Shown in pieces: positions 23,321 through 63,487 of a stretch of 64,000 nt of DNA; the first letter of the stretch is position 1; the number at the start of each line of letters is the position of its first letter. Below the pieces are notes generated by a model. That model was not told where the DNA came from. It saw nothing but the letters and a program-made list of their open reading frames with translations, and did not search any database. The stretch spans positions 1 through 64,000 of the forward strand of contig JAPJBO010000502.1 of NCBI GenBank assembly GCA_030068145.1, written 5' to 3'. Position numbers and translations under genes: made by a program. The stretch comes from Diplonema papillatum (lineage: Eukaryota; Euglenozoa; Diplonemea; Diplonemida; Diplonemidae).

Positions 23321-23326
23321 TTACGG

Positions 23327-24690
23327 CACCCGTTGTATTTTATGGTACCCGTTGTATTTAACGATACCCGTTGTATTTAACGATACCCGTTGTATTTAAC
23401 GGTACCCGTTGTATTTAACGGTACCCGTTGTATTTAACGGTACCCGTTGTATTTAACGGTACCCGTTGTATTTAACGATACCCGTTGTATTCAACGGTAC
23501 CCGTTGTATTTAACGGTACCCGTTGTATTTAACGGTACCCGTTGTATTCAACGGTACCCGTTGTATTTAACGATACCCGTTGTATTTAACGGTACCCGTT
23601 GTATTTAACGGTACCCGTTGTATTTAACGGTACCCGTTGTATTTAACGATACCCGTTGTATTCAACGGTACCCGTTGTATTTAACGATACCCGTTGTATT
23701 CAACGGTACCCGTTGTATTTAACGATACCCGTTGTATTTAACGGTACCCGTTGTATTTAACGGTACCCGTTGTATTTAACGATACCCGTTGTATTCAACG
23801 GTACCCGTTGTATTTAACGATACCCGTTGTATTTAACGGTACCCGTTGTATTCAACGGTACCCGTTGTATTCAACGGTACCCGTTGTATTTAACGATACC
23901 CGTTGTATTTAACGGTACCCGTTGTATTTAACGGTACCCGTTGTATTTAACGATACCCGTTGTATTCAACGGTACCCGTTGTATTTAACGGTACCCGTTG
24001 TATTTAACGGTACCCGTTGTATTCAACGGTACCCGTTGTATTTAACGATACCCGTTGTATTTAACGGTACCCGTTGTATTTAACGGTACCCGTTGTATTT
24101 AACGATACCCGTTGTATTCAACGGTACCCGTTGTATTTAACGATACCCGTTGTATTTAACGGTACCCGTTGTATTTAACGGTACCCGTTGTATTTAACGA
24201 TACCCGTTGTATTCAACGGTACCCGTTGTATTTAACGGTACCCGTTGTATTTAACGGTACCCGTTGTATTCAACGGTACCCGTTGTATTTAACGATACCC
24301 GTTGTATTTAACGATACCCGTTGTATTCAACGGTACCCGTTGTATTTAACGATACCCGTTGTATTCAACGGTACCCGTTGTATTTAACGATACCCGTTGT
24401 ATTTAACGGTACCCGTTGTATTTAACGGTACCCGTTGTATTTAACGATACCCGTTGTATTCAACGGTACCCGTTGTATTTAACGATACCCGTTGTATTTA
24501 ACGGTACCCGTTGTATTTAACGATACCCGTTGTATTCAACGGTACCCGTTGTATTTAACGATACCCGTTGTATTCAACGATACCCGTTGTATTTAACGGT
24601 ACCCGTTGTATTCAACGGTACCCGTTGTATTTAACGATACCCGTTGTATTTAACGATACCCGTTGTATTTAACGGTACCCGTTGTATTTA
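23327..24690. repeat. 19-bp satellite, about 71 copies
   Basis: Unit CGGTACCCGTTGTATTTAA, with two common variable positions: GGTA or GATA, and ATTTAA or ATTCAA. The variants alternate in a patchy way. It lies in what would be an intron of the giant gene if the exons near 22.8 kb are real. Apparent coding across it is repeat translation. Confidence 0.97.
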
Positions 24691-28300: not shown

Positions 28301-31300
28301 CTCGAGACAGAGGGGTTCTTCGGTGTCCTCGTCGGACGCCCCGAGGGGGACGACTTTTTTGATGAGCAACGAGTATTTCGCGACCAGGCCCTTCCACACA
28401 ATGAGGTTCGGGTCGTAAGTGTGTTGCGCGCTTTGCATGCCGCGGCCCCACGTGACGTCTGCCTTGTCCTCGGAAATGTTGCTGACCGTCAGGCCGAGCT
28501 GGTTGAGGGTGAGGAACGTGACGGGGCTCGTCCACAGGCCCCACTCCTCGTCGCCGTAGCACGCGCGGAGGGTCAGGATGTACTTCGTGTCCGGCTTCAG
28601 GTTCCGGACCGAGAAGAGCCCGTTGGTCTCCGCCAGCGCTTCCGCGGTGACCCTCTTCTCGTACTGCAGCTCGTGCGAGGTCAGCACGACGTGCCACAGC
28701 TTGCTCGGGACGACAATCCCGCTCTGCAGCGCGTTGTGCGACGCCTCGTCTCGGCCCCAGCCGACCATCACGTAGTTCTCCCCGATGCTGTCCACCTTCA
28801 CCGTCAGCAGCGGGAGCGTGATCGCGGTGCGTTCCTCGCTCCACGACCCCCACTGCTGCTCGGTGTTCGCTGCTCGGACGATGACAATGTACATCGAGTT
28901 CGGGCTCAAATTCGCAACCTGTATGATGGTGTGATCCGCTAGCCTTACTTGGGTGTCCTCGGGAAGTACTTGGGAAGTTCACGGGAAGTACTAAAGGCAA
29001 AAAAGAATAGGCGTGTGTTTGTTTGTACGTGCGGGGTGCGATGATGCACGAGGCAAACACGCAGTCAAACTTCCCGTCGTCAAACTCCGCGCAGCGCGAT
29101 AGCTTGCAACGGGCACTGTGCCCGAGTTGACTTAATCCTCGAGGATTTCAGTCCGGGTAAGTGCCATTTCTGTTTGTACGGGCCGGGGGAGGATTAGCCT
29201 GTTAGTGATTGGTAGTGAGTGGATATGATCGTTAGGCTAATCTTCTCTCAAACACGCTGCCAGCGTTCTCTTTTCGTGTTTACAGAGCATTGTTACTACG
29301 AAGAAATCGTCAGAAATCGCCATTTTACCCTATTTGGGGTGTACATGGGGTGCACTAGGGAAGTACTCGGAAGTTCGTAGTAAGCTCATGGGAAGTTAAG
29401 TTTTCTACTCTGGATCACACCGTCATGCGTGAGTAGGAGTGGCAGCAGTTTTTCATCCCCAGTGTGATGTTTGATCAACGCAACATCAAAAGGCAGCCCT
29501 TTCAAAGACCAGCCACAGTAAACGCCGCGTGGGTGCGGGCTTCAGATGTCAACCATCATCAATCGTCAAACCCCCGATTGCGCGTTGGACCTGGAAGCAC
29601 CAAGAGGGTGTCGGTGGTACGAAAGTGCAGTTGCCCGCATCCAACCGGCAATCTGCTCGCATTAGAGCTAGCCGTGTAGTGGTTTGAACTCGACATGCCG
29701 CAACCTACCTGCGACGGTCGACCGCACAAATCTTGTCACTCAAACCATACTGGACCGAGGAAAATCCGACAAATCTGGGGTGGCCGGCTACATTGGATGA
29801 GCACACTTTTCCACAAAACTTCCCAGAAATTCCCAGAATTTCGTTCTCTTTCACGCTTTTTCACGCTTTTTCGTCGTCTTGTTGCATTAGTGGGGAGTCA
29901 TTTGCATGCAACACTATGCCAGCTTTTCGCTACGTGACTCCAGAAGGGTCACTTTTTCCGCGCTTTCGGCGCGGCGCAACTCTAGTCGGCTGCAACTGTT
30001 GTTGGCAGTTGCTCACGATCTCATAATCCGAAAAGGAATCGGAGTCTTCGCTTTCCCGCTTGCGCCGATAGGCACGCCGCGATGCGGAGGACGCGAGTAG
30101 CCGGGAAGAGCCGGCGGGAGGGCGCGATCGTTGTGTGACCCGTGGAGGGTCGGAACCAGAATCAGTAAAAGGGCCCGAGTCAGGGCCTGCCATCGAAGAG
30201 GGCCGGGCGGGGCCGGGTGGGCGCGGTGTGTTCGGGCCGGCGAGGCCAGTGCCGTCGTCGCCGAGATCGGCGCGTCGTCGTCGTCGTGCGCGCAGCGCGG
30301 CTGCGGGAGAGGCCGTGGGGGTGCATGGCGCGGGTCGCTTCCTGCCTGCTGGCGGGGGGGCGCGCTTCGGGGGCGACTTCGTCGTCCGCCTCCTCCGGCC
30401 ACGGCTGGTAGGTGTTCCAGGTGGGGACGGCGCGCGCCGCTTCCGGCCTGTGAGGCCGTCGCTCTCGCCTAGGCTGCGACCGCCACCGCCGCCGCCGCCG
30501 CGATCCCCGCCGCGTCCGCTGCCGCGACCGCCGCCGCGTGCGCGGCCGCGACCAGTGCCGCGGCCGCCGCCACCGTCTCCGTCACTGTCGTCTCCGCCGC
30601 CTCGGCCGCCGCGGCCGCGGCCACGGCCGCGGCAGCGGCCGCCACGACCACCGCCACCCCCGTCGCCACTGCTGCTGTCGCGGCCAGCACCACCCCTGTG
30701 ATGCCCCCGTCCGCAGCACGCGTCAGCGTTCGGGCAGGTCCCGCATCGCGTCAGCCGATGCGCCCGGCAGCACTGAATGCGCAGGCCGTCGTCCGGTTGG
30801 TGGTGCACCTGGCAGCACTGGTCCACTACAAGGCTGTAGTTTCTCCGCATGCCCGAGCACATTGCGCACTTCTGCTTCGCGCACGCGTGACAGACGGACT
30901 GTGAGCGGAGCAGGGGGTCTGCCTGCGACTCCGGGACGAGCACCGGGAGGCGTGGTCGTTGCGGCATTGGTGTGGGCTCGGCCCAGCGCGCCGAACGCTG
31001 CGCTCGCCTCGTCGCGTCATAGAGCGGGAACACGTCCCCGCCCCAGTTCTTCCCGTCCCCGAGCGCCGCACGCGGGAAGTTCATCTCCAAGACTTCGAAC
31101 GTCTCCTCCCCCCCAGCGAAATGTGGCCGCGGTGTCAGACCACCCCACAGCATCGGCGCCCCCAGCGTCCTCATCGAGCCCACCCGGTCTTTCCGTTCGG
31201 CCGGAAGCGGCGACGGCAGCTGCAGTTCCCGACACAGGCGGCACAGCGTCGCTAGCATCGTCCAAAGGGTTTTCCCCCTTCGGTTGGCGGCGAGGTTCGG

Positions 31301-34300
31301 GGGGCCCAGGATGTCGTGCCCGGTGAAGACCTCGAAGTCGACGGCCAACTCGATGTTCGACACTTCGCCAGTGTCCGTCCACTGCAATGCCGACAGCCAG
31401 CCCTTCATCGCCCGCATCGTCCGTCCCCCATACGGCCACTTCGGCGGCTCATCCGGTAGGCGCCCGAAGTCAAACAGGTGTCGGACCGCCGGCCGCGACG
31501 TTGCCGCCCTCCAGGGGTGGATCGGCTGTACCGCTGCCAGACGGCCACGTTCTGACTCTTCGCGCGCCACGTACACCGACGCCATGAAATGGTGCAAGGC
31601 CGCCGCGTCGACCGGCGCGCCTTCCACGATTACCCCGTGCACGCGCGTACAAGACGGCCACCGCGCACGGTCCGCCCGCATGAGCTCAGCAAAGCAGGGG
31701 CGGCGGCGAATCTCGTCGTACGCAGGGCACTCCCACCACAAGTGATCCGCCGTGTCGTGGGCGTGGCGGTCACAGTCCCTGCAACACCGGTCCGGCGGCG
31801 GGCGCCGCTCACCCGTGGAGGAGCCTCCGTCTTCGCCAGCCTGCTCGTCGAAGCTACCGGACGCATCTGATGCGGTCGACGTCGTCGACGACGCCGTCGT
31901 TGACGCGGGAGAGCTCGCCGAACCTTCCGATCCCGCCGCCTCTTCCCCCGCACGCGCATTCCGCCCCCACCGAGCCGCAAGGAAAACACCCCCGGACAGG
32001 ATGACGGTCAGCGCGCGCCTCACACCGCCGTCGGCCGCCGTCAGACGCAGCCCGTTCGTGCGCCCGCAGTCTACCCCGGCCTGCACTCCGTCGTACGAAG
32101 GCCGCTGTCGCGCAAGCTGCAACCACACCTTCCGCCGCAGCTGCGCTCGGACGACGTGGTGCCTCTCGCCTCGCTGCATGCCGAGAAGCCGACGACCCCC
32201 CAGCGCCGCAGAACAGAGATCCCCGCCCTCGAAGCCAATGCCCGCGACCGACAGCCCATCCGCAATGGCGATCCCTACCGGCCCCAGGCGCGCCCTCGGC
32301 AAAAACGTTTCGTGCCGCTCGTACAACCTCACGATGTTCCGCATGCGCGCACACACGCGTGGCAGCCTCTCGCAGGTGTCGAATAACGCGCACAGAATCC
32401 TGTACGGCCGAGCGATCATCGGATCCAGACGGTGACCCTTCGCCAAGATCGATAGCACCGCCGTCACGTTCCTCGACGGGTGCTTGCTCCCAAAAGCGCC
32501 CCTCACGATCCGCGTCCGGAGTCCCTTCAGGCGCGTCTGCGTGTACGTCTCGTAGGAGCACCCGGTAAGGACACTGCTGAGCACGTTCGAACTCGCCACC
32601 TCGCAGCGGACATCGAACGGAAGCTTCGAGGTGCCCAGCCTGTCTATCAGACCGTCATGTGCGCTCAGACGCGCATCGTTGGCCCGACCCGTTTGGACGC
32701 TCTCCACACTCGTTCGCACCCCGAGGATCTTCGCAGCCGTCGCCGTCGCTATGGCCTCGCCGTCCACCTTCACCGCGCTGGCGTACGGACGCCGCCTGCG
32801 CTGTTGCGTCGAGCCCGCATGGATGCCCATCGCCAAGGTTTTCGCCATGTTCAGGCGCATCCCGGTCAGGGCACAGAACCGCGCGACGATGTCGACCGCC
32901 TGCTGCAGCTCGGCTTCCGCCGCCGCGAAGAGCGTGGCATCATCCGCCAGCGACTCCGACGAAACCTCCGGTACGCGCGCCGACACCGCTCGGAGCACAA
33001 CCGACAGCAAGGCGTTGATGAGGATCACCGAAAGCGGGCACCCCTGCAAGATACCGTTGGTGACCTCAAACTCGGAGCCCACGCCGAGCGGCAGCTTGAA
33101 CCGTCGCTTCATGCCGCGGTACATGGCGCGCAGGGGGCGCAGGATGCGCGCGTCGAGGCCCATCTCTTCGGCGAGCCGGAGAACGATCCCCTGCGGTACC
33201 CGGTCGAAGCACTTCGCGAAATCGAGTGCGACCATGTACAGCGACTTCGACTTGTCGAGCAGCGTCTCCTCGATCAGCGTCGTCAGCTCCATGAGGACGT
33301 CGTCCGTCCGATGCCCTCTGCGGAAGCCGTGCTAGGTGGTGATCACTATAAATATTCCGAGGAAGCGCATAACAAGTGCCAAGCTACTCTACCACGAATC
33401 ACGTTAGGTGACGTCAACAAATATGCGCTGCGCTACGAAGCAAATGAGGTTTGCTGGCGGCATGTCAGGGGGGTATGTCAGGGGGTGTCGTGCGGTCGGA
33501 CAAGGCGATGCCGGATGGTCGTCGATGCCGAGTGACGCCTGCGGTGCGGACAAGCAAGCTTGTTACCATAAAAAAAGAACCCCTGTTCCTTCGCTCAGTT
33601 TCCCACTGTTTCACAGTTTCTCCAAAATTTTGTTCTCCTTCGCACTTCTTCCCATTTCCCCAGTTTCGGGCTGGTGTTCACGTTGGTAGGGAGTCAATAG
33701 CCCCCAAAAAACTGGAAAAGTATTCAAAAACTTCCAAAATCTTCCCAGAATTTCCCAAGATTTCCCAGAATTTCGGTCCCTTTCACGCTTTTTCACGCTT
33801 TTTCGTCGTCTTGTTGCGCTAGTGGGGAGTCATTTGCAAGCAAATGAGTACCACACTACCGCTTTTTCACAGTGTTTCACAGTGTCTCACGTGGTTCCAC
33901 TTTCATACACATAAGAGCGACTGGTGATATCATGTGAAAGACATGGGAATTTTTGTGAAATTTGGTGTGTCTCCAATGTAGCCGGCCACCCCACGAATCA
34001 GAGATTCGTCGCCCTGCGTAAGTAGTAGCAGCAGGAGTGTGAAAGCAAATCTGCAAATTCGTGGCGCCCTGGACCCAAGTATACTGGGGCCGATTTACGG
34101 CGAGTCCACGCATGGCAAAAGTTGCACCTGGCGCATCTTCACTTTGCCGGGTTTATCCCTGGAAAAATCTAAACCCCGTACACGTATATTATTTACTTAT
34201 TTATTAGTAAATAATACACGGGAAAGCAAATAATAAACGAATCGATTTATGAAACGGGTTTGCGGGAAGCAAATAATAATTGAAATTATTTATAAGAGTA

Positions 34301-37300
34301 AATAATATCCGTGAAGTAAATAATATACGGGTACGGGGTTTACACCGGTTCTGTGTGTACGGATCAGAATTGGTGGTTGCGCCTTCGGCGCACGCACCAA
34401 TCGCAAAAGAGATCGCACGTGAGCACGCCCCATGCTGCTGAGGCATAGGCAAATCCGTCTAAGGCCCTCACAGCCGCGCCTGAACGCTCAGGTAAAACTC
34501 GCTAAAACCGCACTGGACTGTCTTCGTTTTACGCTGGCTATCTGCGATGAAAACTTTGCAGAGCTCAGCGTCTGGTGTATGTACGTGTCAAAAAGCTGAT
34601 GGTTTAGAGTGGGTAACGCTGACGCGAAGAATGGTCCACCTTGTCAGACACGCTGCTGGCCTTGTGACTCCACTCCGAAAGGGAAGGGACGAATGGCAAA
34701 CCTTGAAGTTCGTAACATCTCCTGAAAACTGCTTGTCGACCAGCGGTACGGAGGGCGCGTGCTCTGCAGCGAAGACACACAAGTGATACTGTGGGGGATT
34801 GGTGAAATATTGGATTTCGTCTTTGAGGTCCTTGTCGCAAACAACTGTCCGCACCACGATTGTGCATAGTGCGTTGCTCAGGGTAGTCGAAGGCCTCACA
34901 CTAATGCAACAAGTGTTCAACGACGCTGCGGAGAAAGGAAAGGCAAGAAGTCGGCAGTCGTCGGAGGGGATCCGTGGTACGTGCCGGAAGGGGTTCCCCG
35001 ACACGAAAAGTGGGGTGAGCAGGTGTGTCACGAGCACCAAAAGGTGAAGTGCGACGCCTGCAAGCGCCGGGGCAAGTCGGTGGCGAGGTGCTGTAAGGCC
35101 CACCATTCGGTGGGTGGTGACCCCTCCGAACAGTCTCCCTGGCCCTGGCCCACGCCTGATGCCGCAACCCCTTAACCCGGGCGGCGGCGCTTTGGCATGA
35201 GCCAGGAACCTCAAGGGGAGCAGCGCGAGAGGCATCATCCACGTTTCAAAGGCCCACACACACTACTGCAACAAATTTACCAACTGTCCGCACCACGACG
35301 CAAGTTCAAAGGACTTTCCGTCCTCTTCGAGATAGGTAGCCGGAAAACTCTCAAATTCGTTTAGATGCGTCAGGACGTAGTGCGCATCCTTTTGTTTGCT
35401 CTTCCCCATGCAAACACATAGACAAAACACAACACCTTGGTCACTGCAGCTTCGGGGAGGACGGGGGGCAGGCTGTGGTTGTAGTCGGTGGCGTGCTGCT
35501 TTTCGCGGGTCCACTCGACGTGGACGAATTGCTCGGCGATCTTACCGAATGTCACCGTGATCGGCCGCAGGGTAACGAAGCACGCCTGCTCGGACCACAG
35601 GGACCACGTGTTGCCCGCGTCGCACGACCGGACGCGGACTGTGTACATGCTCGAGACGTCGAGGCGCTTCACTTTGTAGGAAGTTCGACTCGCTTTGAAC
35701 TTCTTGGCCAGGTGGTACGGCTGGTCGACGCCGTGCATCTCGACGTGGTACCGTGACACGTTGGACGACGTTCCGACGAGCGCTTCGTTGATCTCCAGCT
35801 GCTTTTGGAATCGGTCCCACGAGATGACCACGTAGTCCTCTCCGATGTTGTTGATGCTGATCGAGAGCTTCGGGAGGGTGATGAGGACGCACGGCTGCGA
35901 CCAGAGCCCCCATTCGTTGTCAGCAATCGCCCGGACGAACACCTTGTAGCAGGTGGCCGGCGTGAGATTGGTAACGCGGAACGCCGTTTCATCCGGCCCG
36001 AACTCATGGTCGATGTGGACCGTGTTTTCGGCCATGTCTTTTTCGGTGCCGTCCGCGTGCAGCTGGTCGATGACGACGTGGTACCCTTGCACGTCGGGGA
36101 CCAAGTCAGCCACCGAAGACGGGTGGAAATTGTGCGCGTCCGGGTCCCGGATCCAGCGGAGCGAGAAGTAGTCCTCGGCGATCTCGTCGATGATGGCGAC
36201 CATCGGCTTCAGCGTCGCGACGTGGGTGGCCGAGCCCCATATCCCAGGCTCCCCGATGTACGGGTCTTCGTGCTGCTCCGGCGCTTGCCCTTCGGTGCCG
36301 GCCGGCGCGGCGTCTGCTTCAGGGGAGGCCGGTTGCTCTGTGGTTTCCGATTAGTGATACGAGCCCTTTATGGACGGGGACGCGCATAATTATGTCTAAG
36401 AACGTCGAAAAAGCCAGAACTCGAGTTCGGACACTCGCCTGCAAAAGAATTTCCCCGCCAGCCAGCCCAAAGGAACCTGAAGTTCGTTCGCAATGCCTAG
36501 TGGAATTCCCTCGATGAATCGCAAGACGTGTCAAAAAAGACTCATGTTTCGCTGCTGCAAAGAGATGTGTCCAAGCAGCACCAGGCTATCCATCTTGGAG
36601 TCAAAACCCTTCGAGTTTGACCCATTCCCCTCTGTAGTTTCCGGTTGCTGCAGGTCTTACAGTTTACCAGGGGTTGACCCTTTACGGACGGGAGACACAT
36701 GATGTCGAAAAAGTCAGAACTCGGACTGTAGTTCGGACACTGCGCCTGCAGAGCAAAGACGCGTCGAAAAGGACCCATGTTTTGCTGCTGCGAAGAGATG
36801 CGTTAAACCCCCTTCCCAAGGAGCGCCAGGCTTCCCATTTTTGAACTCGGAAAACGTTCGAGTTTGACCCAAAGGTTCCCCCAAGGCTTTCTGCGCCCTG
36901 GACTACCTCCCTCCGTCCGTAAATGGCGACCATCGGCTTCAGCGTCGCGACGTGGGTGGCCGAGGCCCACATCCCGGTCTCCTCGATGTACGGGTCTTCT
37001 TGCTCAGGCTCGGATCTTATAGTTTGCCAGGGGGTTAGCCCTTCACAGACGGGAGACACACATAATTACGTCGAAACAAAGCTTAACCCCTTACCGACCG
37101 GGCACCCTCGACTTTCTTCCGGGAGTTTGGGTCTAAATCCTGGTCATGTCAGGTTGGCACCTTGTCGACTGCTCGAGGGGGGAGCGAGATTTCCGGGGTT
37201 CAAGGGCGGGAATAAAGAGATACGCCACATATCTTTTCATTCCCGCCCTTGAAAGCTGTTTCCGAACACCATCCCAACTTTCCAGCATATCTGAGAAATG

Positions 37301-40300
37301 GGCTATTTAACGACCCCTGTGGAGGTCGCTGGTCGGTAAGGGGTTAAGTTTAGAAAGTCAGCCACACCTTCCTCATTCGTTTTTTCGGCGTCGGCCTCGT
37401 CGGTGATGTCTTCGACCGCGGACGGTTGCTGCTGCTGGGTCTCGCTTTCTTCGTTCGGGAGGAACCAGTGCTTGGTCTTTTTGCTCTGCGCTTTGAGGGC
37501 CGCCTCCTTCGCCCGCCGATACGACTCGTCGACGGGGATGTACCAGTGCCTGACCTCGACCCTGTATCGGTGGTTCGGCACCAGCTCCCGGAGGGTCACC
37601 GCCGTCTCCCCCGTGAACGACGAAACCACGACCGGGTTGCCCTTCGAGTCCCGCGCCAGCTCGCCGCCTTCCTTTTTCCCGCCGCCGCCCTTCTGCAGCC
37701 GCGAGCCGACCGCGTGCAGCCTGCCGGCCGTCAGGCCGCCTGGAGCCGTCAGGACGGACTGCCCTCCAGGGCTGGGCGGTGTTGCAGGCGTACTGGGGTC
37801 CGTTGCGTCGATCGTGATGTCGGAGACCCGGTACTGCCAGCGGATGGTCGCCTCAAGCTGCCCGAGGTGGAGCTGAGGGTCGCCCGGCTGGGGCCGGTAC
37901 GTGTGGGGCAGCCGGTGCCACTTGGTCTTGATGTAGTCCTCGCCGACCTGGTACGCCTCGACGGAGAGCACGTTCAGGGTCGCCGTCGCAACCGTCTGCG
38001 ACGTCGTGCCCCACGTCTCATCCTCGTACGACGCCCGGATCGAGACACGGTACCTCTTGTCGGGCACAAGATCTGCAGGTTTTCGTGCGAGGTCAATAAT
38101 ACATGTGCATGCATTCCGAAAGTGAGTTGAAGTATGAATAGTTGAAGGTATTACAGTGGTGTCACCTGAGCAGGGTAATCTCAGGGCTGTCCACGTGGTA
38201 AAGCCGCTAAGCACTGAGAACTTTTAAGTACACGGACCACACGAACTAGCATGCACTGCCGTTAAGCACTGGGACCGATCGTGATGTCGGAGACTCGGTA
38301 CTGCCAGCGGATGGTCGCCTCAAGCTGCCCGAGGTGGAGCTGAGGGTCGCCCGGCTGGGGCCGGTACGTGTGGGGCAGCCGGTGCCACTTGGTCTTGATG
38401 TAGTCCTCGCCGACCTGGTACGCCTCGACGGAGAGCACGTTCAGGGTCGCCGTCGCGACCGTCTGCGACGTCGTACCCCACGTCTCATCCTCGTACGACG
38501 CCCGGATCGAGACACGATACCTCTTGTCGGGCACAAGATCTGCAGGTTTTCGTGCGAGGTCAATAATACATGTGCATGCATTCCGAAAGTGAGTTGAAGT
38601 ATGAATAGTTGAAGGTATTACAGTGGTGTCACCTAAAGGTAAGCCGTTAAGCACTGGGAACTTTTAAGTACACGGACCACACGAATTAGGATGCACTGCC
38701 GTTAAGCACTGGGACCGATCGTGATATCGGAGACTCGGTACTGCCAGCGGATGGTCGCCTCAAGCTGCCCGAGGTGGAGCTGAGGGTCGCCCGGCTGGGG
38801 CCGGTACGTGTGTGGGCAGCCGGTGCCACTTGGTCTTGATGTAGTCCTCGCCGAGGTCGCCGTCGCGACCGTCTGCGACGTCGTGCCCCACGACGTCGCA
38901 GACGGTCTCGTCTCATCCTCGAACGACGCCCGGATCGAGACACGGTACCTCTTGTCGGGCACAAGATCTGCGGGGTTTCGTGCGGGTCACTGGTACGTAT
39001 GCATGGCACTGTGCATACCACGTGTTCGGATATTTACATGGTCCATACGTGGTCCATTACCGGATACCCTAACCCCCATCGTGTAGCGGTGCATCAACAC
39101 CTAGTGCGTAGCATCCACCGTGTGGGTGCTACATGTATACTTAGGTATTGGTGGTGTACGTACGCATACAGCGCGTGTACACCGTACCACTACGTGTGCA
39201 CACAGGGTCTGCACGGTGGGGTCGAGCCTCAGAAGCTGGGGTTAAAGAGAGCGTGCCCGAAACACACGGGAAAAAAGGGTGCTGCAACCGAGATGTGTGT
39301 AAATACACCCGGAAAGCGGGTGTGACACCCGCTTCATGCACCTGCTGCCTTGCAAAGTTGCATGCAGTACCAACAACGAAGTTTTAGATCGTGGGAAGGC
39401 ATTCGACGGAAACGAGAGCGCGGGGATCCAAGATGATCAGGTACTGTCGTATAGTAGGAAGTAGTGCGTTGCTCAGGGTAGTCGAAGGCCTGACAATCAC
39501 ACTAATGTAACAAATTTAGAGAGGACGCACGGAAGGACCCGCACAGCACCAGTCCATTCCCCACGCGGGGGGGGATGGCCGTGGAACACTCCCCCGGGAT
39601 GACGAAGGCCGGGGAGAGCCGGGGGCAGTGAAGTAACGAAGCCCGCGAACGGTGGGTGGTGACCCCTCCGAACAGCCTCCCTGGCCCTGGCCCACGCCTG
39701 ATGCCGCAACCCCTTAACCCGGGCGGCGGCGCTTTGGCATGAGCCAGGAACCTCAAGGGGAGCAGCGCGAGAGGCATCATCCACGCTTCAAAAGCCCACA
39801 CACTAATGTAACAAATTTACTACTGCTGTAGACCGGAATTTGAATAATGTTGAACTGGACTAAAGCTGGAACGAGTAAATGTCAGACCGGGTAAAACCTG
39901 GTACACCCGGCAGGGTGTCTCAGGTAGTTACCTGCGTGACTGCACCAGTGGTGGTCCTGCAGCCTCCTATGACAGCGGCATCTACAGCCGCAGGGGACAA
40001 GCTGAGTATTGTACACCCCAAGGCGCGGACAAGCACCACGGGGTCGCGATATTCTGCAGAGCAAAGCCGCAGACCCCGGAAAAGAAATATGCTGAACCGG
40101 GTAAAACCTGGGACACCCAGCCCCGTGTCCCAGGTTTTACCCACCCCCAGAATCCGATTACGTTACGGTAATATACGCCGTCTCAGGATCGAAGGAAGGG
40201 AAGTCATTTTTGGCTCCCACGGCAACAATAATACTCTCCTCCTCGCCCGTCTCGCTGCTCCGTACTCGCTGCTCTCGTCCTTGCTGCTGCGTGATGCCAG

Positions 40301-43300
40301 ATTGATGGTGTGTAACAAACGTAGAAAGGTCATGCAGAGATTCTCGTGTGTATGCCACGAACTTCTTCCGAGCGAGGGGTAAAATTACGGTGTTTTTCTC
40401 GGTGCGACGGGGTAATACCCTGTTTACAATGGTGACCAAAAAAAGGCGTGATAATAATACCTGTGATCGTAAACGACGTCGCAGCGTTGTCGGTGTTCGG
40501 TACGATGACGGTAGACTCCCACTCTTGCTCGCTGCCCAGCAGGGAGATGGTCAGCTCGTACTTGTCGATGCGGGTTTCCGGCGCGGTGAAGACGAAGGCC
40601 TCGTCCTCCCTGGGCTCCTCTGGCCGGACGGGTTCCCCCAGCCCGCCGTAGTGGGTTGTGATCACGTTGGCGTTCGTGTTCTCGAGGATGGGCGCCTGCG
40701 CGGCGGCCGCGCCGGCATCCGGCGCGTGCCGCCACCACCGGACGTTCACGTAGTTCTCCCCGACGGCTTTGACGTCGAGACACAGCAGCTGCATGGTGCG
40801 CACTGTCCCATGGGAACTCCAAGCCCCCCATTCTCCGGCTGCGTTGCACGCGCGGCACTCAACGTAGTACGTTGAATTCGGTGTCAGGTAGTGGACGGTG
40901 TAACGCGTTACCGACCCTACGAACGTACGGTCGACGAGCACGGTTTTTCTGTCGTCGTTCGACCAGACCCTGAGGTGGAACTGCATCGTGCGCTCCTGGG
41001 AGATGACCAGCTGCGACTCCTGCGACTTCTGCGGGTAGTCTTCGGCCCGCTGCTTGGGGCGGCCCCATTGCACGACCATCATTTGCTCGGTGGTTTTCAC
41101 GGACCCGACGGCCATGCGCATCAGCGTGACGACTTCCATCGGCAGGTTCCACAGCGACCACCGATCCCGGCAGTCCTTCGATCGAACTCGAAACGCGTAC
41201 AAACTGTCCAGCGCGAGCCCTGTTATCCGCCACATCGTCTCCGTCGGCGGAAACGGCTTCCTCGCCTGGAACCCGCTCGCTGATCCCTTGCCCAGCACTT
41301 CGGCCTCGTACTCCACGACCGTGGTGTCCCCTTCGTACACGGTAGGCAGCCGCGGGTGCTTCCGGTTCGGCGGCCGGTTCCACGTCACCGTGAAGTTGTC
41401 CTCCCCCACCAGCTCCACGTCCACCGACATCCGCTTCATCGTGACGAAGAAGCAGTCCGGCGACCACACCCCCAGCTCGTTGCCGGACGTCTCGGCCTGG
41501 ACCCTGATGTTGCAGAACCGGTTCGACTTCAGGTTGTCGATTCTGAGGGACGACACGGTCGGTGCCAGCTTCAGCGTCATGCGGTACCTTTTTTAGAGTT
41601 ATAGTTCGCTTGAGAATCCGGGATTTTAGAGTCTCCGTCGAATGGGTTCCTTTAAAGCTAATACGTACTGGGTGGGTTTGGGGGCATGCATGGCTTCTTT
41701 CGTGTACACGTTACTTGCTCGCTTTGGCGAGTCAGGTTCGAAACAATTTGTGACCGACACCAAGTACTCGCCAGGTTTGTATAGAGTGAACGTTTGCTTG
41801 AAGATCCGGGGTTTAAAGTCTTTGGGTGACCTTCGTCGAAAGGGCTCCTTAACCCCTTACCGACCAGCGACCTCCACAGGGGTCGTTAAATAGCTCATTT
41901 CTTAGATATGCCGGAAAGTTGGGATAGGTGTGTCGAAAACAGCTTTCAAGGGCGGGAATGAAAAGATAGGTGGCGTATCTCTTGATCCCCGCCCTTGAAC
42001 CTCGGAAACCCCGCTCCCCCCTCGAGGAGTCGACAAGGTGCCAACCTGACATGACCAGGATTTAGACCCAAACCCCGGAAATCCCGCTCCCCCCTCGAGG
42101 AGTCGACAAGGTGCCAACCTGACATGACCAGGATTTAGACCCAAAACCCCGGAAATCCCGCTCCCCCCTCGAGGAGTCGACAAGGTGCCAACCTGACATG
42201 ACCAGGATTTAGACCCAAACCCCGGAAATCCCGCTCCCCCCTCGAGGAGTCGACAAGGTGCCAACCTGACATGACCAGGATTTAGACCCAAAACCCCGGA
42301 AATCCCGCTCCCCCCTCGAGGAGTCGACAAGGTGCCAACCTGACATGACCAGGATTTAGACCCAAACCCCGGAAATCCCGCTCCCCCCTCGAGGAGTCGA
42401 CAAGGTGCCAACCTGACATGACCAGGATTTAGACCCAAACCCCGGAAATCCCGCTCCCCCCTCGAGGAGTCGACAAGGTGCCAACCTGACATGACCAGGA
42501 TTTAGACCCAAACCCCGGAAATCCCGCTCCCCCCTCGAGGAGTCGACAAGGTGCCAACCTGACATGACCAGGATTTAGACCCAAACCCCGGAAATCCCGC
42601 TCCCCCCTCGAGGAGTCGACAAGGTGCCAACCTGACATGACCAGGATTTAGACCCAAACCCCGGAAATCCCGCTCCCCCCTCGAGGAGTCGACAAGGTGC
42701 CAACCTGACATGACCAGGATTTAGACCCAAAATCCCGGAAATCCCGCTCCCCCCTCGAGGAGTCGACAAGGTGCCAACCTGACATGACCAGGATTTAGAC
42801 CCAAACCCCGGAAATCCCGCTCCCCCCTCGAGGAGTCGACAAGGTGCCAACCTGACATGACCAGGATTTAGACCCAAACCCCGGAAATCCCGCTCCCCCC
42901 TCGAGGAGTCGACAAGGTGCCAACCTGACATGACCAGGATTTAGACCCAAACCCCGGAAATCCCGCTCCCCCCTCGAGGAGTCGACAAGGTGCCAACCTG
43001 ACATGACCAGGATTTAGACCCAAAACCCCGGAAATCCCGCTCCCCCCTCGAGGAGTCGACAAGGTGCCAACCTGACATGACCAGGATTTAGACCCAAACC
43101 CCGGAAATCCCGCTCCCCCCTCGAGGAGTCGACAAGGTGCCAACCTGACATGACCAGGATTTAGACCCAAAACCCCGGAAATCCCGCTCCCCCCTCGAGG
43201 AGTCGACAAGGTGCCAACCTGACATGACCAGGATTTAGACCCAAACCCCGGAAATCCCGCTCCCCCCTCGAGGAGTCGACAAGGTGCCAACCTGACATGA

Positions 43301-46300
43301 CCAGGATTTAGACCCAAAATCCCGGAAATCCCGCTCCCCCCTCGAGGAGTCGACAAGGTGCCAACCTGACATGACCAGGATTTAGACCCAAAATCCCGGA
43401 AATCCCGCTCCCCCCTCGAGGAGTCGACAAGGTGCCAACCTGACGTGACCAGGATTTTTAGACCCAAAACCCCGGAAAAAAGTCGAGGGTGCCCGGTCGG
43501 TAAGGGGTTGATGGGCGTCGATGTAGTATGCTGCCAACTACATTGCAAACAAGCGAGGGGTGCAGTATACGGTACTTTTCTCGGGTTAGCAACGGGGCAA
43601 TAACCTTGTACGAGGGTCAGTTCTGGTCGGAATAATAATACCAATTCATTCGAACTTCTACAGACTTGTTTCGACGGAAAACTGTAACAGTGGCATGATG
43701 TTCAGTATGGTGTTGGTTCGCTCATTGTGCAGGCTTACATTTTTGAAACACATTGCAAAGCCTCGACGAAATGCTCGAGGGGCTGCCTTGTGCTTACTTC
43801 GAAGGAGGCTACAGGCCCTAAGAGGGGGAGAAACAATACAACTAGAAAGTGGGTCTTTTTTTGTTGAACGCTTACGCCCGCCACTAAACCCAGATTTACC
43901 TGTGGTAAGTAGAGGTAAAGTTCGCTTTTGCGTGGGCTGCAGCACGTGTTCCTCCTTTTGAGATCGGAATATTGTTGCGATAGCGGGGAGACGTCGGCAT
44001 GCCGATGACCCTGCCTTCGAGATTTCGCAACGCAGTCTTCTCAAGTGTTTCCTACAAAGCAGAAGCTTGTGACGATAGACTGCACAAACCGCTACAGACG
44101 GCCGCCTAGTAGTATGTTTCGTTCTTCATACAAAAAGTCGGTCGCAACAGTTACAAACTAGGCTAGCCGTAGTTAAAGTGTGTAAGTGTGCCTTCGAGAT
44201 TTCGCAACGCAGTCTTCTCAAGTGTTTCCTACAAAGCAGAAGCTTGTGACGATAGACTGCACAAACCGCTACAGACGGCCGCCTAGTAGTATGTTTCGTT
44301 CTTCATACAAAAAGTCGGTCGCAACAGTTACAAACTAGGCTAGCCGTAGTTAAAGTGTGTAAGTGTGCCTTCGAGATTTCGCAACGCAGTCTTCTCAAGT
44401 GTTTCCTACAAAGCAGAAGCTTGTGACGATAGACTGCACAAACCGCTACAGACGGCCGCCTAGTAGTATGTTTCGTTCTTCATACAAAAAGTCGGTCGCA
44501 ACAGTTACAAACTTGGCTAGCCGTAGTTAAAGTGTGTAAGTGTGCCTTCGAGATTTCGCAACGCAGTCTTCTCAAGTGTTTCCTACAAAGCAGAAGCTTG
44601 TGACGATAGACTGCACAAACCGCTACAGACGGCCGCCTAGTAGTATGTTTCGTTCTTCATACAAAAAGTCGGTCGCAACAGTTACAAACTTGGCTAGTCG
44701 TAGTTAAAGTGTGTAAGTGTGCCTTCATCCCTCACTCTACGCGACTCCCAACCTCACTGGTCAGCCGGAGACCCTAAAACACCGAATCTCTAAAACACAA
44801 CAAACGCTGTACCTGCCGTCGGGCCCGATGACTCCCTTCTCACTGGCGGCGACCGCCGCCTCGAGTTCCGCCAGGCGCTGGCGGTCCTCCAGCTCCTTCT
44901 TCCGCTGGCGCTTGCGGTGGACGGCCATCTGGTCCTCTTCGTCGGTGGTGGAGTCGGTGTCCGAGTTGCTGTCGTGCTTGTCCTTCTTGTCGTCGTCGCG
45001 GCCGGGTGACGCGAGGGCCTCCTCCGCCGCTTTGATCGCCAAGGCATGCATCCGCCGACGTTCTTCGTCTTCTGGCAGGTCGTTGTCGTCGAGTTCTTCC
45101 ACGTCGAGGTAATAGGCGGTGACGGACACAGGCATGGACACCATTGCGGGATCGTCGTACCGGATGCGCTGTTTCATCCGCTCCCACGCGACTTCGATCC
45201 AGTCTTCGCCGATGTCGCAGATCGCTGCCACCATTCTCGAGAGTGTCATGCAGGTTCTTTGCGGGGACCAGAGCCCCCAGTCCCCTTTCCGATCCCATTC
45301 CCGGACGGCGAGAGTATACTTCAGGTCGCTGACGAGCCCCGTGACCCTGAAAGAGTTGGTGTCGACGACGTCAACGGACTGCTTCCTCTCCTCGTGCTGC
45401 CCGGTCATCTTGTTCTCCGCTTCGAAGTCGAGCCTGATCTGGTAGTGATGCCCCAGCCCCTGCTCCGTCGGCGTCGTCTGCACCCGGCTCATGTCCTCGC
45501 CCTTGATCCTGACGTTCGGCGCCCTCTTCCAGTCCAGCTGGATGAAGGACTCCCCCACGTACGAGATCGACAGCTGCAGCAAATTCTGCGTCATGAACTT
45601 CGTGCTCCCGGACCAGTCCCCCCACTCTCCCCCGGCGTAGCACAGCATCAGCCGGACGACGTACAGGTGGTTGGGCACCAGGTTCGAGACGGTGTACATG
45701 TTTAAAATGGGCTGATCTTTGCCGTCGAGGGCGGGCAGTTCGACGTCGTCTATTTTGCCGTCCTCCGACACGACGCGGAGGAGGAACTTCTCGACCTTGA
45801 CCTCGGGCGGGACGAAGACGAGCCCCTTCCCTTCTTTGCGGGTCTGCGCGGTTTCCCTGAGTTCGCGGACCCGCGCCTTGTGCACTTTCAGCTCCTTGCG
45901 CATCCGTTCCTTTGCCTCCGCGCTGGGCTCCTGGCGGACGTACTGCACGTTGTCGCGCTCGGTTTGGTCCCGCTCACGCTTCTCCCGCTCCTCGATCTGC
46001 TTCTTGTTCGCCTCGTACTCCTTCTTGCACAGCTCCTGCTGCTGCTCGTGGTCGGCGCGCTCCTTTGACAACCGGAACCAGAACAGGTTGATGTAGTGCT
46101 CGCCGAATCGGCTGTTGCACAGCTGCAGCGGCAGCAGGGTCTGCGCCGCGAGAGCCTCGGACCAAATGCCCCACTCGCCCTCCGTGTTCCGCGGCCGGAC
46201 GGCCACGGTGTACAAGGTATCCGGCGTCAGGTTCTCGATTTTGAACTTCAGAACCTGCAAAAAACATTTTTTTAGAGTTAAAGTTTGCTTGAGAATCAGG

Positions 46301-49300
46301 ATTTTAGAGTCTCCGGGTGACCTTCGTCAAATGGGTTCTGTTGTAGCAAATCCGTATCAGGTTGGGGGTGTACAAGAACGTGTTTGGAATGGATATGTGC
46401 TCAACACCGCCTGTCTAGTCCCGCGTGCGCCGCGAGAGCCTCGTACTCCTTCTTGCACAGCTCCTGCTGCTGCTTGTGGTCGGCTCGCTCCTTGGACAAC
46501 GGGTACCAGAACAGGTTAACGTAGTGCTTGCCGAACCGGCTGTTGCACAGCTGCAGGGTCTGCCGCGAGCCTCGGACCAAATCGCCCTCCGCGTTCCGCG
46601 GCCGGATACTATACATTGAATATACGCTGCAGCACATTCCTTTTGAGATGGCACAACTGGCAGTCTCCTCAAGGATTTCCTTTAAAGCGAAGGTGCTTAT
46701 ACAAAGAAAAACAACACCTGCTTTCGAACCTGCGCGTCGAGCAGGCACCTGTCGGCTTCGTCGTCTCCTACAAGTGTCTCCACCTCGTCCAACGTGGCGT
46801 CCAAGCTCGGGTCTGCGTCTGCATCCGCCTCCGCCTGCCCCGACGACGCCGTGTCGGCCTTGTCGGTCTTTTTCTTCGCCCCCTTCGCCTTCTTCTGCGC
46901 GCGGAGCTGCGGGCGCCCGACCGTGGAATGCGTCGGCTTCAGGGACTTTCCCTCCTTGACTTTGCGGGGGGTGTTCTTGGGCTTGCGGCTCCGGCGCTCG
47001 GAGACCGTTGGGGAAAACGGGTCGTCCAGGGGAATGCAAAGGGAGGGAGGAGGCGGCGTGGGGCAGCCGGTGTCGCCCCACAGGCGGAAGTGGTACCCAG
47101 TGCACTCCGTCGACGCGGTGTGGACGTTGTGGAGGTGGAGGTACTCCTTCGACTTCTGCTTGAGCTCGGTCAGGCCGGCGGTGTCGCCCGACTCGCCGCC
47201 GGCGTTCGAATCGGTGAACAGCCCGCTGAAGTCGCTCTCGTCGCCACCCTCGTTTTCGTCCAGCGCCAAGTCCCGGTCCCCCGACAGCTCGCCCTCAGCC
47301 GCACCCTCCCCGAGCGCTTTACGCGATCCTTTCAGCCCTCCCCTCCTATCCCGCTCGTCCTCCCGCTCGCTCTCCTCCGCCAGCACATCCGCGAAGTCCT
47401 CCAAGCACTGCGGGTCCCGCTTCCAGTGCACCCACATGAAACACTCCGTCACCCTCGACACCGACACGCTGATTGTATTCAGCGTCAAAAACGACACTTT
47501 TTGCGACCAAAGCGACCAGACCGACCTGCTGTTCCGACTTCTAACGCAGGCACCGTATATCTTGTTGGGCTGGAGCCCCCGCACTCGGAAGGAGCTGACG
47601 TGCGAAGGAAGGAGGTGCGTTGCGGACGAGTCGTGGCCGAGGCCGCAAAGTTTCAACTCATAGCTGGTCACCTCGTAGTTGCCTGTTTTGATCTGACCGA
47701 GGTTCGCGCTCGGGACGACGTCCGATCCGTGGTCGCTAGCCGTGTCGTGCTTTTGGTCGGGTGACTTTTGCAGACTGGAGGATTCAACCGGTTTTACAGC
47801 GAGCATGGTGGAACTCATTTTGTCGGTGCCGTCTGAACGCGCCGACGACGGAGAGGATGCGGAGCCGTCCTGCTCCATGAGCCAGTCGACGCTCTCCCGG
47901 TTCCACTGGCATACGACGCTGTCTTCGTTGATGCCTTCCACCGCTATCGTGAGCATTTTGGTCGTCGCTATCATCAGCACCTCCGACCAGGCGCCCCAGT
48001 ACTCCTTGTCGGTTTGGCACCTCGCCTTGATGCTGTACGTTTTGTTCGGGCAGAGGTTTTTGATGCTCCACTCGGTGTCGCCCTGCCGGAACGACTGGAC
48101 CGTCTGGAACGCGTCCGCCGCGCTGCCGACGACCCCGCTCCGGTCGACTTCGATGCTTTGGACGTTGACTTGGTACATCGAAGGCTCCGCTCTCGACTGA
48201 ATCACGTCCGGGGGCGGCGGCTTCACCCGCGGCACGCGGCCCCACTGCACCTTGCAGAAGCACTCCCCCAAATCCTCGAGCGTGAGCCCCATCGGGTTCA
48301 GGGTCTGTACCGTGCTCTTCTCGGAGCACAGCCCCCAGTTCCCCTCCCGGTCCTTCTCCCGGACGCCGACCCTGTACGTCGACCCGGGGCGCATGTCCCA
48401 CACTTCGTACTTCAGCTGCGAGACGTCGAAGTCACGCTCCAGCGCGTCCTCCGGGCTTTGCAGGGTGCTCGGATCGTCGACGACGGGGATGATGCTCAAT
48501 TGATACGTGTGGACCTCGTTTTCGAGGGGGAAAACGCTCAATCGGCCAAACGACGCGTGGGTCGCCGTCTTCGGCCGGTCCCAGTTTACGACGATGAAGT
48601 CCTCGCCGATGTAAGTGATGTCGGTGGTTATCAGGGGAAGGGTGGTCACGACCTGTTCTTTCGACCAGAACCCCCAGTGGCCAGAGTCGGATAGAGCGCG
48701 GACCGAGAAGGTGTACGTAGTGTTGGGTTCCAGCTGCGTGATGCGTTTGCTGAGATCCTCGGCGGAGAGTTCGAATTCGCTGTGGTTGTCTCCCCACGAT
48801 ATTTTGCTCGTGTAGACGCGGACGATCCACCGCAAGACTTCGTCCGACCCCACCGCGATGCCGGCACCCGCTTCGTTTTCCTCGAACACGTCCTGCACGT
48901 TGCACTCAAACTCCGTGACTTCCCCTTCTTTCTCCGCTTCTTCCTCCTCGCCTTCTTCGTGTTCCTCATCTTCCTCGTCCTCCTCCTCCTCTTCCAACGC
49001 CGACGAGAGCTGGCGTTCGGTGTCCTCCGTTTTCGTATTCTCCCTTCTGCCCCACTGCAGGTGCACGAAATCCTCGCCGATCCTGTCGATGCTCAGCGTC
49101 ACCGGCCGCAAGGTCGCAAACCGGCGCACGGCCGACCAGAGGCCCCACTCCCCTTTTGCGTCCTTCATCCGGACGGTCACTTGGTAGATGGTGTCGACGT
49201 CGAGCCCTTCGACTTTGCAGCAGTTCACGTCGGCCGCCAGCTGCCGTTCGACCACGACGCCTTGCCGGCCCTCCACCTTCACGTGGAACTCCTCCACCAA

Positions 49301-54142: not shown

Positions 54143-54916
54143 CACGCCGGAGCCACCCTGACACCGCAAGAACGCCGGCCCCACAACACCAGACACCCCC
54201 CAGGCGGTGTGTTCCCTTTGGTTAGAGTTTTTGGAAGTGTTGGTTTGAAAGAAACGCTGTGGGAATAATTTTGTTGGACGACTGAGCCCAGATTCACCTG
54301 TGTTTCGTGTGGGCTTCAGCTATTTCTCCACCGCCTTTGAGATTTTCGCGACTGGCAGTCTCTTCAAGTATTTCAAAGCAGGTGCTGCGGTGGCCACCCT
54401 CGTTGTGAAGGTGTTCAGCTTCCCGGCGTGCAGCTTGACCACCTTCGAGCGGCGGGCGCCGCCGCCCGCCTTCATCTGCTCCCAGAAGCAGGTCCGCTTC
54501 TCGTCGTCTACCACCGCCAGCTCCCAGCTGTTGACGGCCGCTGCGGCTTCATTCTCCTCCGCCGCGGTCAGCTTCTTGCTGTTGTACACAGCGCTGCCGA
54601 CCTCCGTCATCGCCGGAGCCACCCTGACGCGGCAAGAACGCCGGCCCCACAACACCAGACACCCCCCAGGCGGTGTGTTCCCTTTGGTTAGAGTTTTTGG
54701 AAGTGTTGGTTTGAAAGAAACGCTGTGGGAATAACTTTGTTGGACGACTGACCCAGATTCACCTGTGTTTCGTGTGGGCTTCAGCTATTTCTCTACCGCC
54801 TTTGAGATTTTCGCGACTGGCAGTCTCTTCAAGTATTTCAAAGCAGGTGCTGCGGCGGCCACCCTCGTTGTGAAGGTGTTCAGCTTCCCGGCGTGCAGCT
54901 TGACCACCTTCGAGCG
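54143..54916 (-). pseudogene. Duplicated pieces of exon 1 start, with SINE-like sequence
   Basis: 54400-54612 repeats the first exon (AEENEAAAAVNSWELAVV, KRTCFWEQMKAGGGARRS) but lacks the segment between KKL and TAAEEN. It then joins a SINE family A piece (54272-54390). A second family A piece (54745-54863) and the sequence CCTTTGGTTAGAGTTTTTGG are also duplicated. The promoter of the intact gene must lie within or near this region; no element is recognisable. Confidence 0.7.
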
Positions 54917-55577
54917 TCCCGCATCGCCAGTCCTGCTTACCAGAAGTGGCCCACTTAGAACCAGGATTCTACGTCGGGGTTCAATGAAGTAACCCCGAGC
55001 TCACGCCCATTTAAAGTTTGAGAATAGGTCGAGGAAGCGATTTCCCCAATGCCTCCAATCATTCGCTATACCTGGCATAACTCCTGTTTTGGTTCTAGCT
55101 ATCCTGAGGGAAACTTCGGAGTGAACCAGCTACTAGATGGGGGTTCGATGGGTCTTTCGCCCCTATACCCAGCTTTGACGAGCGATTTGCACGTCAACAC
55201 CGCAACGGACCTCCACCAGGGTTTCCCCCGGCTTCGTCCTATCCAGGCATAGTTCACCATCTTTCGGGTCCCAACAAGTGTACTTAACCTCAAATCCCTT
55301 TCCAGTAAATCAGGATCGGGCTGTGCTGCGTCCTCAAGGATTGGCACATCTCCCTTTCAGTGCGGCTTGTGGGTTTGACACCCTAAGCCTCGCACACGTG
55401 TTAGACTCCTTGGTCCGTGTTTCAAGACGGGTAGTAGAAGATCGCTGTGTCTGACATGAGCCTGCGAGCGTTTAACCACGTCAGGCCAGCGGGAGCAAGG
55501 ACGTTGTCCGAAGACGCCGACACTTACCCTTCGCTGACGATGCCGCGGGTCACCTCCTCAACTCATTCCTATCCTGG
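54917..55577 (-). rRNA. 28S rRNA internal fragment (about 660 bp) inserted in an exon duplicate
   Basis: On the minus strand it contains ACCCGTCTTGAAACACGGAC, AAGGAGTCTAACACGTGTGC, ACCCGAAAGATGGTGAACTA and ends GTAAGCAGGACTGGCGATGC, all conserved LSU rRNA blocks in correct order. It interrupts exon-1-derived sequence between CCTTCGAGCG (54916) and GCGCCGCCGCCC (55578), which are adjacent in the intact copies. It looks little decayed. A stand-alone fragment cannot function as 28S. Confidence 0.9.
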
Positions 55578-63269: not shown

Positions 63270-63487
63270 AAAATACTCGAGGGGATGCTTTGTGCTTACT
63301 TCGAAGGAGGCTAGAGGGGGAGAAACAATACAACTACAAACTTCGTCAAAGTGGGTCTTTTTTGCTGAACGCTTACGCCCGCCACTGAACCCAGTTTCGT
63401 GTGGGCTACAGCACATTTACCCTTTCATAATTTGCAGCTGGCAGCCTCCTCAAGTATTTCCTACAAAGCAGGTGCTTGTACAAAAAT
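63270..63487 (+). mobile_element. SINE-like repeat family A, copy 4 (longest clean form)
   Basis: AAATACTCGAGGGGATGCTT, GAGAAACAATACAACTACAA, GAACGCTTACGCCCGCCACT and a tail GCAGGTGCTTGTACAAAAAT. A 14-bp gap exists after GAACCCAG. Useful as a family reference. Confidence 0.65.

Follow-up and report, generated by a model that had tools for sequence, protein, structure and literature searches.

The window analysed here is a stretch of 64,000 nucleotides of the Diplonema papillatum genome (contig JAPJBO010000502.1 of assembly GCA_030068145.1). It contains two MITEs of one family, lying among open reading frames (ORFs) of the minus strand, at the following positions.

35370..36350, minus strand: ORF bearing a fibronectin type III (FN3) match, on one side of the single-copy MITE (Pfam fn3, 1.9e-12)
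37083..37347, plus strand: single-copy MITE of the same family as the element at 41849, with TTAA on both sides (end comparison)
37117..37123, plus strand: left copy (TTCCGGG) of a direct repeat that borders the single 73-bp segment (repeat scan)
37191..37197, plus strand: right copy of this repeat, 74 bp from the left copy (repeat scan)
37199..37253, no strand: subterminal hairpin of the single-copy MITE (position by self-complementary match), with a counterpart in a piggyBac 3' end (by consensus)
37303..38223, minus strand: stop-to-stop ORF adjoining the single-copy MITE and overlapping its end (weak FN3, below the Pfam cut-off, 21.8 bits vs 25)
40330..41592, minus strand: FN3-bearing ORF between the two MITEs (Pfam fn3, 3.3e-11)
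41849..43511, minus strand: array-bearing MITE of 20 units (ends and unit count; minus denotes a unit strand opposite to that of the 37083 copy)
41849..41865, no strand: terminal inverted repeat of the array MITE, including TTAA (end comparison)
41945..41999, no strand: subterminal hairpin (inverted repeat) adjoining the array (self-complementary match)
41998..43478, minus strand: 73/74-bp minisatellite array of 20 units (TRF and unit split)
43495..43511, no strand: terminal inverted repeat of the array MITE, with TTGA replacing TTAA (end comparison)
44761..46326, minus strand: ORF with an FN3 match, beyond the array MITE (Pfam fn3, 1.3e-10)

Minus-strand ORFs with FN3 matches flank each MITE on both sides (9 of the 105 window ORFs were searched), and it is plausible, though not proven, that both elements lie within introns of one gene. 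The window also holds unrelated arrays, for example 72 copies of a 19-bp period and four copies of a 177-bp period.

The element at 41849–43511 starts with TTAACCCCTTACCGACC and finishes with GGTCGGTAAGGGGTTGA. In the interval 41998–43478 TRF reports a period of 73 with 20.2 copies and 98% matches, and 20 unit cores spaced by 73 or 74 bp were counted there, in agreement with the earlier note, which had described TTAA-type MITE ends enclosing about 20 copies of a 73-bp unit. The array occupies 1481 of the 1663 bp (89%) and is, as had been claimed, the bulk of the element; no Rfam match was found in it, rDNA spacers not being expected in Rfam. The right target does read TTGA rather than TTAA, and either the decay after insertion that the note proposed or a non-canonical target may account for it; non-TTAA ends are common across the MITE family. 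These observations support the location of the 41849 minisatellite inside a TTAA-flanked piggyBac-type MITE, bounded by the MITE ends.

The 265-bp relative at 37083–37347, which carries the 73-bp segment once, is, as the note had held, a single-copy MITE of the same family, with terminal inverted repeats of 17 bp counting TTAA and an orientation opposite to that of the 41849 element. Compared with its own genome by BLAST, this 265-bp element gave at least 132 matches (40 of 224 candidates scored), and a unit-junction pattern gave 297 matches (127 + 170) versus none in the reversed control, which shows that the family is not a chance grouping. Most family copies examined carry the 73-bp segment once, and others carry it in 5 to 31 tandem copies. 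The single-copy members, whose consensus of 267 bp is too short for a transposase, are diverse and dispersed in the genome. Among the 29 given, 5 are without an end pair, and TTAA is present on both sides in 11 of the 24 counted, whose two ends were found by script. In viral contigs, two scans found neither the unit nor the MITE end.

The tabulation of internal copy number suggested in the earlier note could be made, among the matches listed, for nine array loci including the window, which contain 5, 6, 7, 7, 10, 20, 25, 29 and 31 units. The unit boundaries, the left MITE end and the hairpin side are alike in all nine; the left MITE end is present in 9/9 and both ends in 8/9, the right end being rearranged in the ninth locus (C435). 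Among the matches listed, there is no sign of a 73-bp array that exists independently of the family and has MITE ends beside it by coincidence. Identity between units of one array is 0.96–0.99 in eight loci and 0.90 in C144, against an average of 0.906 for element flanks over 496 pairs. The hairpin-side end is TTAA in all eight array elements with both ends, and the array-side end in 3/8; we place no weight on the corresponding p values for non-TTAA ends (array-side 5/8 vs hairpin-side 0/8, p = 0.026; array-side 5/8 vs single-copy left ends 6/24, p = 0.088), as the counts were made by eye and the question arose only from looking at them. Copy numbers are those of the assembly, and the series might be largely an artefact of collapsed or expanded repeats; this is extremely improbable because the arrays, at nine places, differ in their flanks and carry internal variants in a definite order, and because five of the nine span only 365–743 bp. 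It is also very unlikely that a free 73-bp tandem repeat existed first and was captured by the MITE, single-copy elements then being reductions. Excerpts of PMC12628747 attribute a suggestion of capture to the authors of the Xenopus miDNA4 work. Here, no 73-bp array free of MITE ends was found in the nine array loci read, among the junction matches listed (100 of 297), the ninth place group among these matches (C558) is a single-unit remnant, and the single-copy members are diverse and dispersed.

The proposal that the two window copies form a direct ancestor–descendant pair did not hold: their flanks are 0.928 identical, and at least 12 of 31 other elements are closer to the array element. 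In the tree, 37083 groups with the 7-unit C363 element (94/80). This tree used 32 of 33 rows, C1065 being omitted for an insertion; two of its flanks, those of C435 and of the array element in the window, retained unit sequence, and corrected flanks were used for identities only. It is nearly star-like, with one of its 29 inner branches starred. Nothing singles out the 37083 copy as kin of the 41849 element, and the two are one pair among the many of a series that runs through the genome.

Variants inside the units are common to several loci. The position-30 C/T is found in the arrays at C657, C76, C219 and C250, and the position-39 G/A in those at C657 and C219; C657 and C250 have no outside flank in common in the 203–367 bp compared per side, and C76, C219 and C363 occupy one and the same position within another dispersed repeat. 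These variants make it probable that whole arrays moved or that units were exchanged between loci; they could also come from conversion between loci or from the copying of a larger host repeat. Two other readings were weighed. According to the first, a single founding array element transposed, its descendants gained or lost units, and related single-copy members are contractions, so that the series is bidirectional and not all single-copy members are ancestral. The single junction in all unit types read fits this reading, as do the identical consensus units of C657, C76, C219 and C250, whose flanks differ. In addition, the single-copy C52, C955 and C85 carry, by eye, the subfamily-A unit and the flank letters of these four arrays, and a weakly supported unit tree joins them with the subfamily-A arrays. 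However, unit types differ between arrays (ATCGGCGCC; GGTTGGCACC with CTCCTCGAG; GGTTGGCACC with CTGCTCGAG; a 71-bp type), which speaks for more than one birth or for a later replacement of units, and the near-star shape of the flank tree cannot decide; we regard a single founder as possible but rather doubtful. According to the second reading, any short direct repeat in this genome tends to become a minisatellite, with the MITE as an incidental substrate and transposition having spread single copies only. Tandem repeats with a period of at least 10 do make up 12.9% of the window; in twenty 9.9-kb loci around family members the share is 12.3% (a figure biased upwards, as 8 of the 20 surround arrays), and many unrelated arrays exist. 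This reading is nevertheless unlikely, because variants common to loci with different flanks (C657, C250) need array movement or exchange, and because the boundaries are alike in all nine loci read. A search for arrays bracketed by inverted repeats left 45 arrays after merging, of which 38 were scorable for flank and seven were flagged; five of these belong to the MITE family, whose other four arrays were unflagged, so that the test is blunt, and neither of the two remaining flagged arrays (L057:7813-8062 and window 6988-7428) is clearly a second MITE with an array.

The best-scoring direct repeat in the 267-bp single-copy consensus (offsets of at least 30 scanned) is TTTCCGGGGTT/TTTCCGAGGTT, at offset 74 and at the unit boundary. 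It is an imperfect 11-bp repeat, TTTCCG(G/A)GGTT, in which 10 of 11 positions agree; a scan for direct repeats matching at 11 of 12 positions and at least 20 apart found none. A repeat of equal score is unremarkable as such, since 48% of 200 Markov shuffles have one somewhere in the 267 bp, whereas one at offsets 73–75 occurs in 1.5% of 3000 shuffles. By eye, the unit junctions have GGG after TTCCG, like the left repeat copy, and the last unit at the hairpin side has CCGAGG in eight of nine elements and CCGCGG in C219, a pattern that fits a crossover within the TTCCG part of the repeat. All arrays read share one junction, which is compatible with one birth or with several.

Several properties link the family to piggyBac. 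Its target is TTAA and not the TA duplicated by Tc1/mariner elements, and its 17-bp terminal inverted repeat continues after TTAA with CCCCTTACCGACC, beginning with CC as piggyBac ends do. The genome contains at least 118 matches to PF13843 (best 1.6e-72; controls 0/14; 116 of 327 candidates scored), and many of these frames are intact, with 851 or 891 aa and no stops. The right half of the MITE resembles the 3' end of one such element, C162 (local score 21.0; none of 1000 shuffles reaches it, maximum 17.5); when the hairpin is left out the similarity is weaker, its score being reached by 2 of 1000 shuffles. A strong hairpin is present in both sequences, in co-linear position (-34.6 and -30.6 kcal/mol, RNA parameters). 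After TTAA, the MITE and C162 ends agree at 14/20 positions in the best pairing and at 10–11/20 in the other three, and no MITE match was found at two further transposase 3' sides sampled (401 bases at C1, 201 bases at C767). Hence, of the autonomous piggyBac with matching ends that the earlier note had envisaged, the transposases and a 3' likeness are found, while an exact end match was not found in the three lineages sampled.

We consider it highly probable that this is a piggyBac-type MITE family whose 73-bp segment, from the left end to the subterminal hairpin, expands in tandem. The starting point would be the imperfect 11-bp direct repeat that brackets the segment, and mispairing of its two copies, by replication slippage, unequal exchange or repair of a break after excision, would yield the first duplication. 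From then on the length of the units would permit unequal exchange and slippage of the ordinary kind, which would change the number of units up or down (5 to 31 are seen) and homogenise them. Since the MITE ends are largely intact, an array-bearing element could still be mobilised in trans by piggyBac transposase and would spread ready-made minisatellites. By extension, the family may act as a self-dispersing VNTR, in which transposition spreads expanded arrays into introns and elsewhere and excision or gap repair at the direct repeat resets copy number; this is a real possibility, which we advance tentatively.

MITE-borne arrays are already known from other organisms, and the Diplonema family opens no new category. 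The closest precedent is miDNA4 of Xenopus tropicalis (Scalvenzi and Pollet 2014), a MITE whose internal satellite unit is, in excerpts of PMC12628747 and PMC9659126, single or in an array of variable number and flanked by short direct repeats that are the proposed cause. In the Diplonema family, too, the same ends enclose either a single unit or an array of varying length, and short direct repeats mark the borders of the unit. It differs by its TTAA target and piggyBac-like right half, miDNA4 being filed as Tc1/mariner (PMC9659126), and by having no free array among the matches listed, whereas capture of a pre-existing repeat is suggested for miDNA4 in one review (PMC12628747) and birth of the monomer within the MITE in the other (PMC9659126). 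Pokey of Daphnia, as described in part of PMC3849761, belongs to the piggyBac superfamily, targets TTAA and has internal repeats varying from 2 to 5 between copies; these repeats derive from the rDNA spacer, apparently evolve in concert with it and, unlike those of our family, lie in transposase-bearing elements, and the MITE derivatives (mPok) are described there as lacking them. In the Xenopus Xstir MITE (Hikosaka and Kawahara 2004), tandem repeats come from internal MITE sequence, and MITE, array and composite structures coexist, but the element is another one and the mechanism proposed is a stem-loop between neighbouring elements (excerpts of PMC12628747 and PMC9659126). Pearl, Helentron and DINE elements of bivalves and Drosophila, compared at review level only (excerpts of PMC9659126), are also non-autonomous DNA elements with a central tandem array, of types other than TTAA/piggyBac.

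The birth of satellites within transposons is, as a rule, reconstructed from its end products, whereas here a series from 1 to 31 units is found between the same ends in one genome. The candidate starter repeat is still readable in the single-copy members, and the variants mark arrays as moved or as exchanging units. This series, together with many intact piggyBac genes, makes the order duplication, expansion, dispersal testable, and if the family is indeed a self-dispersing VNTR, one MITE family would supply many hypervariable minisatellite loci.

Two members of one family of TTAA-inserting MITEs lie in the window, both with a segment of 73/74 bp between the left end and a subterminal hairpin:

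41849-43511, array-bearing MITE, 20 units of 73/74 bp enclosed by MITE ends
41998-43478, tandem array of 20 units of 73/74 bp, 89% of the array element
37083-37347, single-copy MITE in opposite orientation to the array element, 265 bp, with the segment once and TTAA on both sides

The structure that the earlier note had described, MITE ends around an array of about 20 copies of 73 bp, is borne out by the count of 20 units, and TTGA at the right target of 41849-43511 was correctly read. The same note placed both MITEs in introns of one gene; fibronectin type III matches are found in minus-strand ORFs on either side of both (9 of 105 ORFs examined), as would fit a single large FN3 gene with the MITEs in its introns, a reading made at the level of ORFs. 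Tandem repeats are abundant in the stretches read, and the window holds further arrays at 23323-24690 (19 bp x 72), 44012-44726 (177 bp x 4, 99%) and 63480-64000 (141 bp x 3.7, 100%). At 29930-33331 (-), a frame of 1133 aa contains a reverse transcriptase domain (RVT_1, 3.9e-19). Matches to rRNA (Rfam) are confined, in the window, to fragments of eukaryotic LSU and SSU genes at 54805-55410 (-) and 888-995 (-).

The single-copy element, used as a BLAST query against its own genome (2910 contigs, 271 Mb), gave at least 132 matches (40 scored of 224 candidates). Both ends were located by script in 24 of the 29 single-copy members examined. Of these 24, 11 as printed are flanked by TTAA left and right; the rest are altered at one or both ends. 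The pattern of the unit-unit junction occurs 297 times genome-wide, against 0 for the reversed control; the place is known for the first 100 matches, in 9 loci, and for those at contig C657.

Array units per locus, by contig
C144: 5
C432: 6
C363: 7
C435: 7
C76: 10
C502 (window): 20
C250: 25
C657: 29
C219: 31

The left MITE end is present in all nine array loci read and both ends in eight, the right end of C435 being inverted and displaced. Since these loci carry 5-31 units, the two elements of the window belong to a graded series. None of the loci read has 2 to 4 units, and C558, the last locus among the junction matches listed, has one degenerate unit. Judged by eye, the target on the array side (the left MITE end) is other than TTAA in 5 of 8 array MITEs, against 0 of 8 at the other end (p 0.026, for a comparison chosen after the counts had been seen).

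The proposal that the two MITEs of the window are a direct ancestor-descendant pair does not hold: of 31 elements, at least 12 resemble the array element more closely than the 37083 copy does. With units removed, the flanks of the array element are closest to those of C657 (identity 0.943, versus 0.928 for the 37083 copy). The flank tree (32 of 33 rows, C1065 being left out for an insertion) places the 37083 copy together with C363 (7 units), with support of 94/80, just under the program's star; the rows of the window array element and of C435 still held unit sequence in this tree, while the identities used corrected flanks. With 1 of 29 inner branches starred, the tree is near star-shaped overall, as it might be after a burst.

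Inside single arrays, identity between units is 0.96-0.99 at eight of the nine loci (0.90 in C144), whereas family flanks have a mean identity of 0.906 (496 pairs), and the arrays are therefore homogenised or young. At position 30 of the unit a C/T variant recurs in C657, C76, C219 and C250, and at position 39 a G/A variant in C657 and C219; C657 and C250 have no common outside flank in the stretches compared. These shared intra-array variants would imply either that elements already multi-unit transposed or that units were exchanged between loci, and we consider multi-unit transposition the likelier. The array MITEs of C76, C219 and C363, which represent two unit types, are all inserted in a different dispersed repeat, each at one and the same TTAA of it.

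In the single-copy consensus (majority of 20 rows, 267 bp), the best-scoring direct repeat, TTTCCGGGGTT/TTTCCGAGGTT, has an offset of 74 and lies where the unit starts and ends. A direct repeat of equal score is ordinary anywhere in the sequence (48% of 200 Markov shuffles) and less ordinary at offsets 73-75 (1.5% of 3000 shuffles). By eye, junctions inside arrays read TTCCGGG, like the left repeat copy, and in the last unit, beside the hairpin, eight of the nine array elements have CCGAGG and C219 has CCGCGG. Mispairing within the TTCCG of the two repeat copies would leave such a pattern, both at the junctions and in the letters of the last unit; slippage, unequal exchange and break repair would all fit it alike. 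Judging from unit types, arrays may have been born independently between one and about four times.

A search for autonomous piggyBac elements with matching ends, as the earlier note had suggested, shows that transposases are present; an exact partner was not found among the C162, C767 and C1 regions. The Pfam piggyBac transposase domain PF13843 has at least 118 matches in the genome (116 of 327 candidates scored; for example C162:278245-280513) and 0 in 14 control genomes. Dozens of these are intact: their frames, 851 or 891 aa long, are free of stops, and the scores do not differ within either length group. Autonomous piggyBac elements seem to have undergone a recent burst. The region C162:273400-282300 was read over its whole length; on the 3' sides of other transposases, the 201 bases sampled at C767 and the 401 at C1 contain no match to the MITE. 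The C162 element, of about 3.15 kb, is bounded by TTAA, with ends TTAACCACATACGGACG. Its last 190 bp align co-linearly with the MITE's right half, from the hairpin through a stretch that closes with CCCAACT to the end. The local alignment of the two scores 21.0, reached by 0 of 1000 shuffles, or 13.0 without the hairpin, reached by 2 of 1000; both hairpins fold strongly. Of the outermost 20 bases after TTAA, the best pairing of ends has 14 in agreement and each of the three remaining pairings 10-11. Elsewhere in the C162 region, next to another piggyBac ORF, there are TTAACCCAACTCCGACCAAGCACC and a stretch related to the hairpin (74%, E 2e-6). We conclude, on these sequence comparisons, that the MITE family belongs with the piggyBac superfamily.

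Other copies of the MITE are associated with tandem repeats in different ways. On C758 (80000-81300, excerpt L023), copies lie within another tandem repeat, some monomers of which contain CTACCTTAA; a satellite with TTAA in it therefore seems to have been the target of insertion, and the MITE was perhaps amplified along with it. On C48 (259400-261100, excerpt L024), the whole MITE and its flank are present in three copies with a period of about 335 bp, a second route from MITE to tandem repeat.

We recognised no report of the 73-bp family, or of a TTAA/piggyBac MITE with such a copy series, in a literature search that covered mainly freely accessible papers. Variation in the number of internal repeats, as here, is reported for the piggyBac element Pokey (PMC3849761), and two reviews describe miDNA4 of Xenopus tropicalis as being, like the present family, a MITE that carries either a single unit or an array, with short direct repeats bordering the unit (PMC9659126, PMC12628747). 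Arrays borne by MITEs are already known, and miDNA4 is the closest precedent for those of D. papillatum.
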